In this document: one piece after another, positions 12,505 through 21,289 of the stretch
Layout: each line of letters opens with the position of its first letter
How positions within the stretch are numbered: the first letter of the stretch is position 1
NCBI GenBank assembly: GCA_021413945.1
Contig: JAIOPK010000006.1
Coordinates: 499,636 to 563,635, forward strand
Reading direction: 5' to 3'
Source of the DNA: Candidatus Uhrbacteria bacterium
GTDB lineage: Bacteria > Patescibacteriota > Patescibacteriia > 2-12-FULL-60-25
DNA length: 64,000 bases
Position numbers and translations under genes: made by a program
The notes under the pieces: generated by a model
Told to the model about the DNA's origin: nothing
Seen by the model: only the letters and a program-made list of their open reading frames with translations
Database searches by the model: none

Positions 12505-15441
12505 TCAACCTCGAATTTCTTCCACGATTCGAACCTCCTCTTCCGTCAGTCCATAGAGTTCATACACCAACGCATCAATTTGTTTGTCGGTGGCCGTGAT
12601 TGCATTCTGGAGTGTGATTTTTCCCGATTCCGACGCTGACTCGTGAAGCTCACGCGTATGCGCTAGTCGTCGGTTGGCCAAGTCCACCATCTTCTCATAC
12701 ATAACTTTCTCCGCGGATTTCTTCAAATCAAGTTTCCGCACTGGAATTTGCTCCATATATTGGTAAATGAGGCGGTACCGAAACTCTCCAGCGCGTACGC
12801 CGAACGGGATACTGATGTTGCTAATCGCGAACCAGAACAACCTACTATTGAGAATTCCTAATAAATATTTGTCGCCCGTCCCGAGCGCGTAAATGGTGTT
12901 TGTCGGGTATATACCAGATTCGTCATAAGCGAAGCGTGGGTGCTTGCAGATGTCTGGATAAAGCAGTTTTGGCTGGTTAAAAGTTTCGTAGTAATCGCAC
13001 GGACGAAGTTCCCACCAGAAATCGCCTTGGTCTTGCCGTTCGCGGAGCGCTTTGGTGAACGGCTCAAGATGACTAACGATGGACGGATGTTCTTCACTCA
13101 GCCAAGCCCAAGCTTTAACTTCAGAGGCGCTTGCGCCTGCTTTGCCCATTTGCGAACGAGTCCAGCCAGCTGGCAAGACGATGAGCCACGAATCTGTTGG
13201 CTCGATGAAGTATTCCCGCACATCTTCGCCGCCACGACAGGGATGAATCAAGACCGCACTTGCTTCAGCTTTCGCAACGAGCCTGTCTCGCTGTTCGGTT
13301 GTGACGACGAAGGCTTCGTTCAAGCCGGTTTTGATTCCGTAGAATATCTTCTTGTTGACGTAGCTACCGAGTGGTTCGCCAGCTTTCACGATTTTGGCAA
13401 ACGTCTTCAGTTGCGCTCCGCTTCGCAATGACCACGCATCGCGATTGAACTGCTTTACTGACGCAAAGAAATCCGTCTTGCTCATCTCGGCTAGCACGCT
13501 ATCCGTTTCTAGGGTTCTCACCTTGCTGATTTCCACTTGATCGGATTGCTTTTCTTTCGCCAGCACCGGAATACAAACGTAGGTGTCCTTGGCATCGGCA
13601 AACACGGCCAAGCCCCCGAAATCCACGATGCGAATAAGCGCTGCGTGTTTGAGCAAAGTTTCACGCAGGGCTTCGGCATACGTTGCCCGCAGAAAGCTGC
13701 TGGAAACGATGATGCTGTAACGTCCGCCGGGACGAATCAACTTCACACCCTTTTCCATGAAGTAGGTGAATAGGTCGCCCGTGCCTGAATAGGATTCGTA
13801 ATGCTTTTCGAAATAGTCTTTGGATTCCTTCAGAGATTCTTGCCTGAGATATGGCGGGTTGCCAATAACCGCGTCGAAACCTCCAGACTTTATAATGGAC
13901 TCGAACTGAACTGCCCAATCGAATGCGTGAACGCGCACAAGGTCCTCAGGTTTCTCCGAAAAATCGGAAGCGATGAGTGAGTTGCCGCACTTAATATTGT
14001 CTCCCAAACGCGGAAGCATTCGATCGTTAAAAAGACTCTGCTGTTCTGGTGAGCGTAGCGCCTCCAACATCAGAGACAACTTCGCTAGCTCAACCGCCTG
14101 TCGATCAAGGTCGACGCCATAGATGTGCGCCGTAAGCACACGTTTTCTTTCTTCAAGCGTCAGTTGCCATTGCCCTGCTGGGTCTCGATAAACCTTTTTC
14201 GCTTTCTCATGCTTCTTCGCATCATCGGCGACATACCAATCCCGATACCAATCTGCTAGGAATTTGTACGCCCCGAGCAAGAATGAGCCTGATCCGCAGG
14301 CCGGATCGACTATTGAGAGCTTCTCTATCTGTTTCGGAGTCTTCCCCTCAACCAGCTTCCCTACCGTGTTCTGAACGATGTATTCAACAATATACGTCGG
14401 AGTGTAATAGATGCCACCCGCCTTGCGGACTTCAGGCTTCAATTCCACCTTCGCATGACCGCCCTCGGTCAGGCGTATGACTTTACCAAGAAACTGTTCA
14501 TAGACCTGCCCAAGAATTTCCGCTGGAATGGCATCAAACTTGTATGGGCTTTTCGGGAAATAGAGTTCGGAAATGACATCCTTCAAAACCTTATCATCGA
14601 TTTTAAGATCCGCAATCGAGGCGACCTCGAAAAGATCAGAGTCGTAGCGCTGCTCCGCCTTCTTAAAAAGTTTATAAAGCTTTGCATAATTATCCTCCCC
14701 TTCTATCACCCCTCTCAAGTCCCCCTCATTCGCGATTCCGCGATCCTCGCAAATACGGAGAAACAAAATGCGTCCGATTGTATCCTGAACAATACGGTTT
14801 AAGCGTTCTTCTGAAACCTCGTTGCGGTTGGCAATGTTATGGGCCAACAAATTCCTCCATTTGGAAATATCTTCGAGCAGTTCGCCATCAACGGTCTGCT
14901 GGGCGCGCTTCTTTGTCAGCTTCTCTAAAGATCCTCCAAGGACCTTCTCGCGAGAAAATAAATCCACGATCTCGTCCCACCTGTCAACATATTCATCGAA
15001 CTTTATGCAGTCGATACGAGCAATCCGAGAGGTATCTCCATTCTTTGGCCTTACTGACGTGTCGTAAATTGCGAACTCTTCAAAATCCGTCAGAATACTC
15101 CGCACCGTCTTTGCGCTCCACCCATATCCACGTAACTGGAGGGCAGCGTCCTGATTGCTACAGATATTCAATGAAGGCTTTTTAGCCTCAACGAAGAACC
15201 TAATCTTCTTATCCAAGTAGAAACCGAAATCCGGAGCTTTTCCGTGAACGAGCTTCTCGTAATGAACATCACGGTCTGCCCCCTTTGCCAGCTTGTTCTC
15301 CATATCCCAACCCAAAACCTCAAAAAACGGGTTGAGAAACTCAGTCCTTAGCTGTTCCTCGTTATACTCGCTGGATTGGTAGTAATCGAAGTGGAGTTTG
15401 AACTTATCTACAAGCTCCACGATACGTTGCGGTGCGGGCAT
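12505..15441 (-). CDS. Type IIG (Eco57I-like) restriction-modification enzyme
   Basis: N-terminal APDFGFYLDKKIRFFVEAKKPS (PD-(D/E)XK-like), motif I DPACGSGSFLLGAY, motif IV NPPYLRQ; C-terminal specificity-like region. Confidence 0.85.
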   Translation of the reverse strand: MPAPQRIVELVDKFKLHFDYYQSSEYNEEQLRTEFLNPFFEVLGWDMENKLAKGADRDVHYEKLVHGKAPDFGFYLDKKIRFFVEAKKPSLNICSNQDAALQLRGYGWSAKTVRSILTDFEEFAIYDTSVRPKNGDTSRIARIDCIKFDEYVDRWDEIVDLFSREKVLGGSLEKLTKKRAQQTVDGELLEDISKWRNLLAHNIANRNEVSEERLNRIVQDTIGRILFLRICEDRGIANEGDLRGVIEGEDNYAKLYKLFKKAEQRYDSDLFEVASIADLKIDDKVLKDVISELYFPKSPYKFDAIPAEILGQVYEQFLGKVIRLTEGGHAKVELKPEVRKAGGIYYTPTYIVEYIVQNTVGKLVEGKTPKQIEKLSIVDPACGSGSFLLGAYKFLADWYRDWYVADDAKKHEKAKKVYRDPAGQWQLTLEERKRVLTAHIYGVDLDRQAVELAKLSLMLEALRSPEQQSLFNDRMLPRLGDNIKCGNSLIASDFSEKPEDLVRVHAFDWAVQFESIIKSGGFDAVIGNPPYLRQESLKESKDYFEKHYESYSGTGDLFTYFMEKGVKLIRPGGRYSIIVSSSFLRATYAEALRETLLKHAALIRIVDFGGLAVFADAKDTYVCIPVLAKEKQSDQVEISKVRTLETDSVLAEMSKTDFFASVKQFNRDAWSLRSGAQLKTFAKIVKAGEPLGSYVNKKIFYGIKTGLNEAFVVTTEQRDRLVAKAEASAVLIHPCRGGEDVREYFIEPTDSWLIVLPAGWTRSQMGKAGASASEVKAWAWLSEEHPSIVSHLEPFTKALRERQDQGDFWWELRPCDYYETFNQPKLLYPDICKHPRFAYDESGIYPTNTIYALGTGDKYLLGILNSRLFWFAISNISIPFGVRAGEFRYRLIYQYMEQIPVRKLDLKKSAEKVMYEKMVDLANRRLAHTRELHESASESGKITLQNAITATDKQIDALVYELYGLTEEEVRIVEEIRG

Positions 15442-15750: not shown

Positions 15751-18700
15751 TCAGGGCGTGTACAAATAGGCGTCCATGACCCCGTTCATGCCGGATTTGA
15801 TCGCCATACGCTGGAGTGCGTGGAAGTTTTTGAGGAGCAGGGTGATGTTGAGCGGGATGCGTACGCCCCGGCGCTTGATCGCCGTCATGGCTCGCAAACC
15901 CTCCTGCCAGTCATGCCGCGAAGATGCGTCGGCCAAACGATGGACTTCAAGGCGCGTTTGCTCGTCCATGACTCCTCCGCTCTCGGCGACGAAGCCGGCC
16001 AACATCTCTTCCTTGGCCGATATGTCGGCAAACGGATTGATGAACTGGGAAACGATCACCCGTTCCTGCGGAGACAAATGAAGAAAGAAGTTGCGGTCGT
16101 AAACGGCGATCTCTCCTTTTGGCGTTACGGAGAAGTTGCCGATATGGATATCCGAAAGCGCCTGCCCATGGGCAATCTGCTCGATGTAACTCTTGGTAAT
16201 CACGCTGATCACCTGTCGCATGTCGTGACCTTTTTTCTCCAATTGCTTCCACTGCGTCAAGTTTGTTCCCGGGATATACTCCTCTCTTGAGAAATACGCG
16301 TTCTCCGGTCCGCGTGAACGCGGAATGCGCAGACCATACCGATGACCTTCCGGTTTATATCCTTGATGGCGTTCGAAGAAGCGCTTGTCGTTTTCCAAGA
16401 AGTTTTCAAACGCGACATCCTTGGCGATCCATTCCTTCATATCGTCGAGCAAAACATTGGCTGACTCATATCCCCCGCCGTGATTTTTCGCGAGAGATCC
16501 GATCACATCTTTGGCGAGTCCATACATCCCATCAATGTGATGCTTGATGTTTGGATTCAATATTTTGACTACTTCTTTTCTGCCGTCCGTCGCCTCGACT
16601 TCATAAACCGTAACGATCGAGCCGCCGCCGATGCGCTTCCCAAATCGAGCGATCTCATCCCACATCGTGGGCCATTCACGCTCCATGGTGAGTAACGCCG
16701 ATATCTTTGATTGACCTTTTGCCTGATCAAAAACCTCATTGAATTCTTGAGCGTATTTTTCCGGAATGTCCGCCGCGAGCGGAAGGTTCTGTAAAAATCG
16801 GACGCCCATCGCCGACATGCGCTGAACCGTGTCTTTTACAAAGCGGAGCGGCGTCATCGCTTCAAAGACTTCCGGTTTTCCGGCGCCCAACAAATCGTAA
16901 GCGATACGTTGGGAATATTCGCGATAGGCAAAACGGTAGCGATCCATGTTTGACAGGGCGCCTGCGGGAACAGACTTCCAATCTACCAATTTTTTTGTCT
17001 TAACCAGCAGTGCGGATTCGGGACTAATCCTCTCCGTATCATCCAGCGTCAACCATTCGGATGCTTGAGAACGTCTCTTCGGCGGGCGGGCGATGCGCTC
17101 CCCAAGGCTTCCCTGAAAGGCAATGTACAACAGCTCCCAATCTTTGACGTCAACCAGTCCTCCGCGTACTCGTTCCAGCACCTGCTCCAAATCGTTCTCC
17201 CCTTCCGTTGGTTTAATCCATTCCTTGAACAGCGACTCGAGGAAAATTTTGCGTCTCTGCGGATCCGGGAGCAAACCTCCCTCTGATGTCAGGATCTTGC
17301 GGAGCAAGGCATGCCGGCCGACCGGACCAATCGAGTAGATCGTGCGCAAGGCGCTTTCGCAATCGGAGACAATAGCGGCCGCCTCGACCTCTTCTCCAAA
17401 TTTTTGACTGTACTGGGGCCCGGATACCACTCTGTTAAAAATCACTTTGCGCAATTCCGTATCGTCCTCCGACGATTTGAGCAAGGCAAGCATGGTCTTA
17501 ACGATTTCCCTGGGTTCGGTGTGCCGAAAATCTTTTTCGAGAAGTAAGCCGGCTCCAATGCTCGACGATCCTTCCTTCAGCATTTCGTCGAGCTGTCCTT
17601 CTACGCGCTTCTTCACGAGTGTAAACGTTTCTTGCGAGTCGACTTGTTCATCCAAAAAACGTTCGCGCAAATTGAAATCCGTCACGCCGCTTCCACGCCC
17701 TTCCGGAAAGAGCGTGTCGAGTTTTTCCACAAAACCAACGGAAGACCAGCGGTCATTCAGTAGGCGCTTCTCCCATTGATCCCGTAGGGCCGGGTCGGGA
17801 ACGATCGAGACGAGCTCGATACCTTCCGCCAAGCTTAGCTTTTTAAATTCGCCCTTTTTATACATCAAAACCAAACGTTCCAAGATCGGCCCCGTTTCAA
17901 TCGAGCGCCGTACAAATTCTTCACGGGCCCGATAATTCGCGTCGCCTTCCAGTCGGACAACCTCTTTAGATAGCGCCTGCGGATCTTCAATAGAAAGAAG
18001 GTGGCGTACCGCGATTCGCGTGCGCATCACGTCCTCATATTCCTCTTGAAGCGATTGTTCAAAGTCTTGAGGCAGTGTCCCCCACGCGACATCGAGTTTT
18101 GTAAAATCGGGATCCAGTCTCTTGATCAGCCTCGTCGCTCGGTCGCGATCCAAGCGCCCGAGCAAGTTTATGTGTTGAACTTCTTTTTCCAAATACTTGG
18201 CCTGTTTATTAAACTCCGGATCTTCTTTGTTATCCATTTTGTAGCCGTATTCCGGATCCTCATCCGATATTTCCTGCGTAGCCAGCACCCTCACATTCTC
18301 CAATCCGTTCAGCCAATAGTAAAGAAAGAGCGCTTCTTCCTTTTCCGGGAGCGGAATTGAATGACATTCCGGTAGAGCTAGCGCCGTCTTCAACCATTCA
18401 TACCCCGCCGTCGTCAGTAGTCGTATCTTGCGATCCGCGATCTCCGCCTGTTCAAAATTGCCTTTCTGGGTTTTTGATGACACGTATTCATTAACCTTTA
18501 AAAACGTGCTCCGCAGATGGCTCGCGAGGTCTTCTACCTGTACGGACTCTTTGTTCTCCAGAAATTCTGCCGCGAGCGCGCGGGCAAGATTTTTTGCTTT
18601 CTGAAAATCCTTGAGATGCTCGGTCTTGGTTATCCAATCCCGAACCTCCTTGTCTTGTATCTGCTCGACGGACAACGGTTTGTTCTTCTCGATGAGAGCC

Positions 18701-20103
18701 TCCTTGGGCAATTCCAGCGTTTCGCGCAGCGAATCTATCACCTGCTCGTTCTTTGAGGTGTGCACGGAATATGCCTTCGACCAATCCGTAAGAATCGGTG
18801 CCCAGGCCTTTACCGCATCAACTTTTGTCTCCATGTCCGATGAGGCCATCCCATACTTCATTCCCGCCTGAAAGCCGAACTGGGATCTTGAAGCGTACGG
18901 GTAGGCGCGCTCATCGAGAATGCGCTTGACCTCTCCTTGAACCCTCGGGTCTGCCGGCCACGGTTTTGTAGCCGCTTCCAAAACTTCCGGAGCGGCGATA
19001 GCCTCTGTTGGACGCACTTCCGCCGTGCGTTTGGCGTTCTTTACAGGTTTGGGACCGACTTGGATCAGGCCGTTCTTGATATCCATTCCGCAGACCAGCG
19101 AAATAAGTGCTGGTGCAAGCTCGACCTGCAGACGTTCCTCGGCTGGAATCTTTTTAACGAACCGCTCGATAAGCTTTCGTAAGACGGCGACATCTTCTTT
19201 TTCAACCGTCTCGCTCGTCCGGAGAAGTTTTCCGCTCAATTTCTCAATCGCGATCGACACCATATCATCCGGCAGCCGCTCCAATGCCTGAAGCTGACGT
19301 TCGCGCGATTCCTTGACCGACTCGGGATTTGAATAAAGGAGTGAAGGACGCGACGCGACATCCCGATACGAGTAGATTTTCTTATCCTCACTGATCGTTT
19401 TTCTTATGTCTTCCGAGATTGGCGTAAGCGGCTGCGAGGTAGACGGCAAGTGCACGGCAAATGTCGTCTCGGCGATATTCAACGCGCGGTCGCGGCTTGT
19501 CCCGTGGGAAACCGTTTTTGACGGATCGCGTTCAAACATCCGTTCAAGGAGCTGTTTGTAGCCCATTGGATTTTCGCCGGCTTCATCCATCCATTTCACG
19601 GCGCCTCTCAAATCGGCGTCATACTCGTGCATGCGCTCGAGACTCAACGACTGAAGATAGTTATGGATCGCTCCCGATACATCCGGTTTCGGCCCCTCGA
19701 TCTTTCCGGCGGCTATTTGTTTTTTCTCTCTTTGCTTGGCGTTATGTGTTTTTTGGACGTGGACCAGTTCATGTGCGATCACGCCCAACAGCGCTTGTTC
19801 CGTTTGCGCCCGTTCCACCAAGCGCGAGGCAACAAGAAGCGTACCGTCCGGGAAGGCTACGGCATTCATCTCGTGCCAATCCGGCGCAACCTGTACATGG
19901 GGTTCAAGCCCGATCTTGTTCAGACGGTCTGCGACAGATTGGACGTAATTTTGTACCGGGTGATTTTCCGGATAGGCGCCATATTCAAATTCAAAACGTT
20001 TGCGTTCAAGCGCAACCGTACGGCGAAGCCCTTCTCGTTCCGAACGTTCCGGCTTGGGAGAGACATTCGGTGTTTGAATCGGCCCTAGAGCCTCCTTTGA
20101 CAT
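15751..20103 (-). CDS. Giant fusion: N-terminal M48-like metallopeptidase, long helical middle, C-terminal UbiB/ABC1-like kinase
   Basis: ALLGVIAHELVHVQKTHN (HExxH) near N-terminus; C-terminal IGGGSIVTVYEVEATDGRKEVVKILNPNI ... QALSDIHIGNFSVTPKGEIAVYDRN. Confidence 0.75.
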   Translation of the reverse strand: MSKEALGPIQTPNVSPKPERSEREGLRRTVALERKRFEFEYGAYPENHPVQNYVQSVADRLNKIGLEPHVQVAPDWHEMNAVAFPDGTLLVASRLVERAQTEQALLGVIAHELVHVQKTHNAKQREKKQIAAGKIEGPKPDVSGAIHNYLQSLSLERMHEYDADLRGAVKWMDEAGENPMGYKQLLERMFERDPSKTVSHGTSRDRALNIAETTFAVHLPSTSQPLTPISEDIRKTISEDKKIYSYRDVASRPSLLYSNPESVKESRERQLQALERLPDDMVSIAIEKLSGKLLRTSETVEKEDVAVLRKLIERFVKKIPAEERLQVELAPALISLVCGMDIKNGLIQVGPKPVKNAKRTAEVRPTEAIAAPEVLEAATKPWPADPRVQGEVKRILDERAYPYASRSQFGFQAGMKYGMASSDMETKVDAVKAWAPILTDWSKAYSVHTSKNEQVIDSLRETLELPKEALIEKNKPLSVEQIQDKEVRDWITKTEHLKDFQKAKNLARALAAEFLENKESVQVEDLASHLRSTFLKVNEYVSSKTQKGNFEQAEIADRKIRLLTTAGYEWLKTALALPECHSIPLPEKEEALFLYYWLNGLENVRVLATQEISDEDPEYGYKMDNKEDPEFNKQAKYLEKEVQHINLLGRLDRDRATRLIKRLDPDFTKLDVAWGTLPQDFEQSLQEEYEDVMRTRIAVRHLLSIEDPQALSKEVVRLEGDANYRAREEFVRRSIETGPILERLVLMYKKGEFKKLSLAEGIELVSIVPDPALRDQWEKRLLNDRWSSVGFVEKLDTLFPEGRGSGVTDFNLRERFLDEQVDSQETFTLVKKRVEGQLDEMLKEGSSSIGAGLLLEKDFRHTEPREIVKTMLALLKSSEDDTELRKVIFNRVVSGPQYSQKFGEEVEAAAIVSDCESALRTIYSIGPVGRHALLRKILTSEGGLLPDPQRRKIFLESLFKEWIKPTEGENDLEQVLERVRGGLVDVKDWELLYIAFQGSLGERIARPPKRRSQASEWLTLDDTERISPESALLVKTKKLVDWKSVPAGALSNMDRYRFAYREYSQRIAYDLLGAGKPEVFEAMTPLRFVKDTVQRMSAMGVRFLQNLPLAADIPEKYAQEFNEVFDQAKGQSKISALLTMEREWPTMWDEIARFGKRIGGGSIVTVYEVEATDGRKEVVKILNPNIKHHIDGMYGLAKDVIGSLAKNHGGGYESANVLLDDMKEWIAKDVAFENFLENDKRFFERHQGYKPEGHRYGLRIPRSRGPENAYFSREEYIPGTNLTQWKQLEKKGHDMRQVISVITKSYIEQIAHGQALSDIHIGNFSVTPKGEIAVYDRNFFLHLSPQERVIVSQFINPFADISAKEEMLAGFVAESGGVMDEQTRLEVHRLADASSRHDWQEGLRAMTAIKRRGVRIPLNITLLLKNFHALQRMAIKSGMNGVMDAYLYTP

Positions 20104-20123: not shown

Positions 20124-20870
20124 TCACGCTTCAGCCCTGCCCCTTCTGCCCGTAATGATCTTGAGCGCTTGCGGCCTCACCCCGAGCTCCAGCGTCTCCC
20201 CTTCCAACGGCGCGCCGTCGACCATGCAGGAGCCGGCGACGGTACGTTCGAGACGCGCTTCCTTGAACTGCAAATGCGTTTGATCCGACGACTCCTTCTT
20301 CCAAGTGAAACGACGACGGTCGGGCGGTGGAAGAATAAAAACATCGAGCTTGCCGTCATGGGCGTCGCTATCGACTCCAAGATTTCTGATGACGAGTGAC
20401 CCTCCCGGAGGCGGCGCGATCTTGAATTGTTTGTCGACGTGAAGCGTGATGCCGGGGCCGTCGGCGACGAGTTCCGATAAAAATGCCCGAGTACCGACGA
20501 GGCCGAGGTCGACGGTCTCGTGAAAGCGGGCCATGAGCGTATCGACCGATGCGATACCCTTGGGAATGCCGAGACCTTTTGCCACGGGTCCGTCATCGAG
20601 CAGCGAAACAAATCCGATCATCGGATTGGCATCACCGAGCGCGCCGATCGCCGTGAACAGGGTTTTGTCATCGCCGACGACAACAAGGGTTTGCGCGCCG
20701 GAGTGCATCAAGTCGGCGACAATGTCTCGGGCATGACGAAACAACGCAAATTTACCGACGCGGCCGTTCATGCCACGGCGCGAAATCTCGGCCTCGAACC
20801 GCGAAACTTCCCGGTCGTATTTCCGGTCATTCAGCCGCTCGTCGTAGAGATAAGCGTATCCGGACAACAC
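20124..20870 (-). CDS. Divergent diacylglycerol/lipid kinase-like protein
   Basis: AQTLVVVGDDKTLFTAIGALGDANPMIGFVSL...GIPKGI; C-terminal VDGAPLEGETLELGVRPQALKII. Confidence 0.6.
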   Translation of the reverse strand: MLSGYAYLYDERLNDRKYDREVSRFEAEISRRGMNGRVGKFALFRHARDIVADLMHSGAQTLVVVGDDKTLFTAIGALGDANPMIGFVSLLDDGPVAKGLGIPKGIASVDTLMARFHETVDLGLVGTRAFLSELVADGPGITLHVDKQFKIAPPPGGSLVIRNLGVDSDAHDGKLDVFILPPPDRRRFTWKKESSDQTHLQFKEARLERTVAGSCMVDGAPLEGETLELGVRPQALKIITGRRGRAEA

Positions 20871-20875
20871 ATGAT

Positions 20876-21289
20876 TTAGGATTTGGCTTGGCCAACCGTG
20901 ACCTTGCCATTCACTTTTGCGCCTGCCTCGACCGTGAGCGCTTCCGATGTGAGGTCGCCGGCAAGTTTGGCTGTCGACTTCAAATCGATGCGGCGCTCCA
21001 CGATCACGTTGCCTTCGATCGTGCCCGCGATGATCGCGTCACCGGCTTTTACTTCGGCTCGGATAATCGCCTCGACGCCGACCGTGAGTCGGCCTTTGGT
21101 TGCGAGCGAGCCTTTTACTTCTCCCTCGATTTGAACATCGCCGTCACTCGCAAAATCACCCTCGACTTTTACGCCTTTGGCGATCACGGTCGCGGTTGGG
21201 CGCGAGGACGACGGGCTTGGTTCCGGTTTTGGATCGGCCGAAAGAATCGGCTTGATATCGGGAACTTGAGGGGAAGAAAAGAGAGCCAT
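20876..21289 (-). CDS. Bactofilin-family polymer-forming protein
   Basis: IAKGVKVEGDFASDGDVQIEGEVKGSLATKGRLTVGVEAIIRAEVKAGDAIIAGTIEGNVIVERRIDLKSTAKLAGDLTSEALTVEAGAKVNGKV. Confidence 0.9.
   Translation of the reverse strand: MALFSSPQVPDIKPILSADPKPEPSPSSSRPTATVIAKGVKVEGDFASDGDVQIEGEVKGSLATKGRLTVGVEAIIRAEVKAGDAIIAGTIEGNVIVERRIDLKSTAKLAGDLTSEALTVEAGAKVNGKVTVGQAKS

Follow-up and report, generated by a model that had tools for sequence, protein, structure and literature searches.

This locus raises the question of whether an M48-like metallopeptidase and a UbiB/ABC1-like kinase really reside in one polypeptide and, if so, what the two enzymes do together. The gene lies in a window of 64,000 nucleotides from a Candidatus Uhrbacteria genome (G000), and "the window" refers to this whole stretch of DNA as analysed here.

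One reading frame with M48 and ABC1 domains

The fusion gene is an uninterrupted frame of 1450 codons plus a stop codon, encoding 1450 amino acids. A GTG at 20127 offers an alternative start upstream of the ATG at 20103; the ATG is the better choice since MSxE also opens both homologues present in another Patescibacteria genome (G019, the contigs of which match public records of Patescibacteria isolate Gw_Eff_bin_431). These two full-length homologues (1496 aa with 28% and 1569 aa with 26% identity to the window protein) reside on separate contigs, which rules out an assembly error, and together with the window protein they constitute the three rows of alignment and profile A1. Moreover, the same parts recur, fused or adjacent, in many independent genomes, which leaves an assembly error or a chance joining of two genes with negligible probability. 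Both domains exceed their Pfam cut-offs within the one frame, as the earlier note had proposed; its own grounds for doubt, a misassembled join or profiles failing at the two ends, were dispelled by the homologues and the Pfam matches. The M48-ABC1 architecture of the window protein is real. Its features are as follows:

15751..20103 (-), M48 - helical - ABC1 fusion gene; single ORF, full-length homologues P0002 and P0003
19522..19965 (-), M48 metallopeptidase domain, residues 47-194; PF01435, matches BepA and 3c37
19759..19773 (-), HELVH zinc-binding/catalytic motif, residues 111-115; H111, E112 and H115 invariant in A1
19612..19626 (-), EYDAD, residues 160-164, with putative third zinc ligand E160 and with D164; E160, A163 and D164 invariant in A1
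19486..19506 (-), HGTSRDR, counterpart of the M48 HP...R motif; H200, G201 and R206 invariant in A1, aligned in 15 members
16849..19476 (-), middle region, approximately residues 210-1085, mostly helical in a low-confidence model; unmatched in Pfam and NCBIfam
17269..17307 (-), LLRKILTSEGGLL, family signature (LLxGExGLL) preceding the kinase; aligned in fused as well as split forms
16789..16803 (-), VRFLQ replacing UbiB KxGQ, residues 1101-1105; sequence comparison
16036..16683 (-), ABC1 kinase-like domain, residues 1141-1356; PF03109, COQ8A as top structural match
16618..16629 (-), GGGS replacing the UbiB Ala-rich loop, residues 1159-1162; sequence comparison
16564..16566 (-), K1180, ATP-binding Lys; invariant in A1
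16135..16152 (-), DIHIGN catalytic loop with D1318 and N1323; sequence comparison
16096..16098 (-), D1336, Mg-binding Asp (DRN, not DFG); sequence comparison

The N-terminal domain matches Peptidase_M48 with an E-value of 8.8e-10 (39.2 bits vs the 20.3 cut-off; Pfam). The HExxH noticed earlier near the N-terminus is indeed there, as HELVH, and the downstream zinc ligand that was to be checked has a putative counterpart in E160, accompanied by D164. Using Foldseek, the predicted model, in which only the M48 domain is predicted with confidence, was matched to BepA (E 6e-6) and 3c37 (E 8e-5). Judged by its Pfam score, its HExxH and E..AD motifs and its predicted fold, this is an M48 domain. M48 peptidases of the BepA / Q74D82 (3c37) type are the best matches in both sequence and structure and share the HExxH, E..AD, NA and H...R motifs, but the family protein differs from them in that no membrane segment was seen and in having a kinase joined to it or encoded next to it; BepA carries a TPR domain. 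HtpX, BepA and LoiP are membrane-embedded or exported M48 peptidases, whereas a hydropathy scan of the window protein predicted no transmembrane segment (top 19-residue mean 1.41); among the members scanned, G019b alone exceeded the usual threshold, in two windows. The window genome also encodes a separate M48 protein of 296 aa.

At the C-terminal end, ABC1 is matched with an E-value of 4.6e-15 (55.9 bits vs the 22.9 cut-off; Pfam), and COQ8A came out as the top structural match. The kinase K/D/D residues that the earlier note wanted checked (K1180, D1318 and D1336) are present, as is N1323; its reading of DRN in place of DFG was correct, with the Mg-binding Asp retained. The domain thus has the same ABC1 fold and catalytic Lys, Asp, Asn and Asp as UbiB and COQ8A (ADCK3), but the window lineage departs from them at KxGQ, at the Ala-rich loop and, in part, at ExD, and the window protein has an extra upstream module and is without predicted transmembrane segments. 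Specifically, KxGQ has become RxLQ and the Ala-rich loop GGGS in the window group, while ExD reads DVA in the window protein, is altered also in G442 and G019b and is kept as EID in G019a. Elsewhere in the family, most clade A members retain KxGQ-like motifs, and most of clade B has DRN, DRT or DRS at the DFG position. Protein-kinase activity is suppressed by the UbiB hallmarks KxGQ, Ala-rich loop and ExD, all three of which are changed in the window protein. The match to the UbiB equivalog in NCBIfam (TIGR01982) is partial, with 46 bits vs a cut-off of 488, and so is the match to BepA, likewise far below cut-off; because of this we regard the two ends, on profile evidence, as divergent members of M48 and of the UbiB superfamily, distinct from the named proteins.

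According to a review on ADCK3, the A339G substitution inverts the enzyme's preference for ADP and makes autophosphorylation possible, an effect enhanced by removal of KxGQ (PMC4718504; PMC7263595). In our reading of the alignment, G1161 sits at the position of Ala339. Given that the window lineage already has the Ala-to-Gly change unlocking human COQ8A (ADCK3), along with a modified KxGQ brake, its kinase end probably uses ATP as a true kinase and is not a pseudokinase that prefers ADP. Some members may be catalytically inactive, since key residues have been lost in G110, where the beta3 Lys as well as the M48 E..AD motif is missing, and in G442, which has an Arg at the beta3 Lys position. 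The G110 member (L041 3015-7838) is possibly inactive at both ends.

No trustworthy family match in Pfam or NCBIfam was found for the middle region. The helical character ascribed to it earlier agrees with the prediction, which is mostly helix, yet the pLDDT is only approximately 30-40 (the modelling used only three sequences), and this low-confidence model shows no path through the region linking the protease and kinase ends.

Fused and split forms in Patescibacteria

Three clade B proteins, the window protein and the two G019 copies, show no variation at the zinc and kinase catalytic residues, both G019 copies keeping H111, E112, H115, E160, D164, GGGS, K1180, D1318, N1323 and D1336. To find further members we searched with the three-row profile and then with A2, a nine-row profile of the C-terminal part. 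With A2, the long form was detected in 7 of the 379 genomes of a phylum-wide sample (window genome included) and in 9 of the 285 genomes of a class sample. Most long members are frames of 1425-1945 aa matching nearly all of A2; in ordinary UbiB (approximately 500-600 aa) the match is confined to the kinase part, outside which the LLxGExGLL signature falls. According to the profile searches the architecture is spread over approximately 10-11 taxonomic families, and the survey across CPR genomes suggested by the earlier note thus reveals a recurring architecture in the Patescibacteria samples. Pattern scans of the genome contigs returned the two G019 loci and nothing else.

The fused members are those of the window, G019 (twice), G442, G225, G110, G124, G457, G414 and G282. 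Both domains exceed the Pfam cut-offs also in G457, G282, G414 and G110, while M48 is below the cut-off in G442. G225 (M48 20.1 vs 20.3, ABC1 absent from its Pfam matches) was counted as fused on the basis that A1 matched both ends and A2 the C-terminal part. A 1695-aa hit in G598 was left out because it is another kind of protein; its frame (L110 2399-7486) encodes a Pkinase, a HAD hydrolase, a GNAT domain and a second kinase-like/APH region, and is another large multi-enzyme Patescibacteria protein. Assignments to a defence system (no PADLOC match) or to a phage gene (tblastn against phage records gave no match) were rejected. PHROG 9248 and 26636, both of unknown function, weakly match the kinase and M48 parts of the window protein; PHROG 9248 matches the split kinase of G430 with an E-value of 5e-16, and phages may carry kinases related to this one.

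A split form was found in five genomes (G008, G430, G022, G585 and G569), where an M48 gene (approximately 920-1010 aa) lies directly upstream of, and on the same strand as, an ABC1 gene of 1415-1529 aa; at the best-defined junctions the two genes overlap by 4 bp or are a few bases apart, and the loci in G005 and G586 run off the contig ends. Beside ordinary UbiB genes no M48 match was found, at 4 loci with flanks of approximately 9 kb and approximately 20 loci with approximately 1.5 kb on each side. Adjacency to M48 (5/5) differs from that of ordinary UbiB with Fisher p 0.008 (vs 0/4) or p 7e-6 (vs 0/25), p values that overstate independence since the split cases constitute one clade.

In profile comparisons the split kinases, G124/G457, G414/G282 and G586 share approximately 400-600 aligned residues starting well before the kinase, and the window protein, G019 and G442 have 483 aligned residues in common with G225. 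The M48 parts match between groups from clearly (split vs G124/G457, E 4e-16) to weakly (G225 and G110). Trees of the M48 and of the kinase parts both recover the window protein with G019a, G019b, G442 and G225, G124 with G457, G414 with G282, and the split group. In the M48 tree the support for the window group is 94/94, and elsewhere the tree is weakly resolved with long branches; in the kinase tree the long forms fall in two groups, and a single clade is not rejected (AU p 0.2). Since the two trees give largely the same groups, the M48 and kinase parts appear to have been inherited together.

Neighbouring genes and the quinone question

In the window, two genes lie next to the start of the fusion gene (local context only):

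20124..20870 (-), lipid-kinase-like gene, 20 bp upstream of the fusion gene; DAGK_cat E 0.0015
20876..21289 (-), bactofilin gene; PF04519 E 1.1e-24

Both had been named correctly in the earlier note; the bactofilin is clear (E 1e-24), and the lipid-kinase-like gene scores 18.5 bits, below the Pfam cut-off of 23.6 for DAGK_cat. The two genes (20124-21289) are closely packed and with the fusion gene probably form one transcription unit. Directly downstream of the fusion gene, a large ORF (12505-15441) resembles a type IIG restriction-modification enzyme (NPPY motif). Across the loci compared no neighbour is conserved, and the bactofilin and lipid-kinase pair is absent at the other loci.

The window genome has no UbiA-type prenyltransferase, and with A2 no second ABC1 match was found in it; UbiA is over cut-off in 4 of 16 carrier genomes. 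The window protein departs from the UbiB equivalog in its TIGR01982 score, in the KxGQ, Ala-rich loop and ExD motifs and in the UbiA content of its genome. A quinone role of the window protein is unlikely because its genome is without a UbiA family member. With no predicted transmembrane segment, no repeated neighbours and no UbiA homologue, the envelope or lipid-stress sensor proposed earlier was not borne out.

How the two ends may act together

Functional coupling of the protease and kinase ends is very likely, and as the best explanation, held tentatively and at somewhat below an even chance, we suggest a protease-kinase unit, soluble and cytoplasmic, whose M48 peptidase is switched or directed by the kinase end. 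The domains, the catalytic residues, the recurrence and the operon form are observed; from these we infer how the kinase might act on the protease, and any lipid or envelope theme. The peptidase and the UbiB-superfamily kinase would act as one unit, either fused via the long helical region or made from two adjacent genes. The C-terminal kinase end would bind ATP and signal to the N-terminal protease through phosphorylation, or through a nucleotide-dependent change of shape relayed by the helical region, and would thereby switch or direct it against targets that both ends have in common, perhaps at the surface of a membrane or of lipid. Fusion and operon form also fit with two enzymes that merely share a substrate.

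The kinase end could instead be a nucleotide-binding pseudokinase or ATPase, acting as a scaffold or chaperone that hands substrates to the protease with no phosphotransfer to protein. A role of this type has been proposed for COQ8-type proteins, and ATPase activity has been found for UbiB-type proteins, but no phosphorylation of other proteins in trans by UbiB, Coq8 or COQ8A has been demonstrated (PMC7263595). The substitutions at DFG, seen in most clade B members, and the missing beta3 Lys of G110 and G442 also speak for it, but the window protein has all the catalytic residues and the loop change that unlocks autophosphorylation of ADCK3, and we consider this reading somewhat unlikely. It is distinctly unlikely that the unit is a stress device of lipid or membrane surfaces, with the kinase end sensing lipid and the protease trimming envelope or lipid-associated proteins: the lipid-kinase-like gene 20 bp upstream would fit, but no transmembrane segment is predicted for the window protein, the neighbours are not conserved at other loci and the genome is without a UbiA-type enzyme. 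Plant plastoglobules, which house the M48 peptidase PGM48 alongside ABC1 kinases (PMC9725166; PMC12587418), make a lipid-surface role conceivable by analogy. There, an M48 peptidase and ABC1 kinases share one site, but they are unfused, plastid-acting and encoded by separate nuclear genes; by this analogy the plastoglobules may be an independent hint that the two activities can combine at a lipid surface.

Sequential action on a peptide or protein product, phosphorylation being followed by cleavage in the manner of ribosomal peptide biosynthesis or of protein maturation, is very improbable. Pairing of kinase and peptidase is a known theme in peptide maturation, and by profile the kinase part weakly resembles class III lanthionine synthetases; however, this likeness extends no further than the general kinase fold, Pfam and NCBIfam matched neither a lyase nor a cyclase part, and no repeated precursor gene was apparent at the loci inspected by reading.

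We found no description of the M48-ABC1 architecture in the open-access subset of the literature searched. The role of UbiB/COQ8-type kinases is a long-standing question. Here a kinase of this type, which naturally carries the Ala-to-Gly change unlocking COQ8A, forms one polypeptide with a defined enzyme, and the genome encoding it has no UbiA. That a UbiB-type kinase freed of its inhibitory motifs switches a cytoplasmic M48 protease, within a single polypeptide or from a two-gene operon, as a new form of regulated proteolysis with a direct, quinone-independent protein-kinase role, would be a bold proposal and an unlikely one. With a single soluble protein it could be learned whether UbiB-type domains are protein kinases or nucleotide switches, and the same protein could reveal a kinase-gated protease in Patescibacteria, bacteria with reduced genomes.
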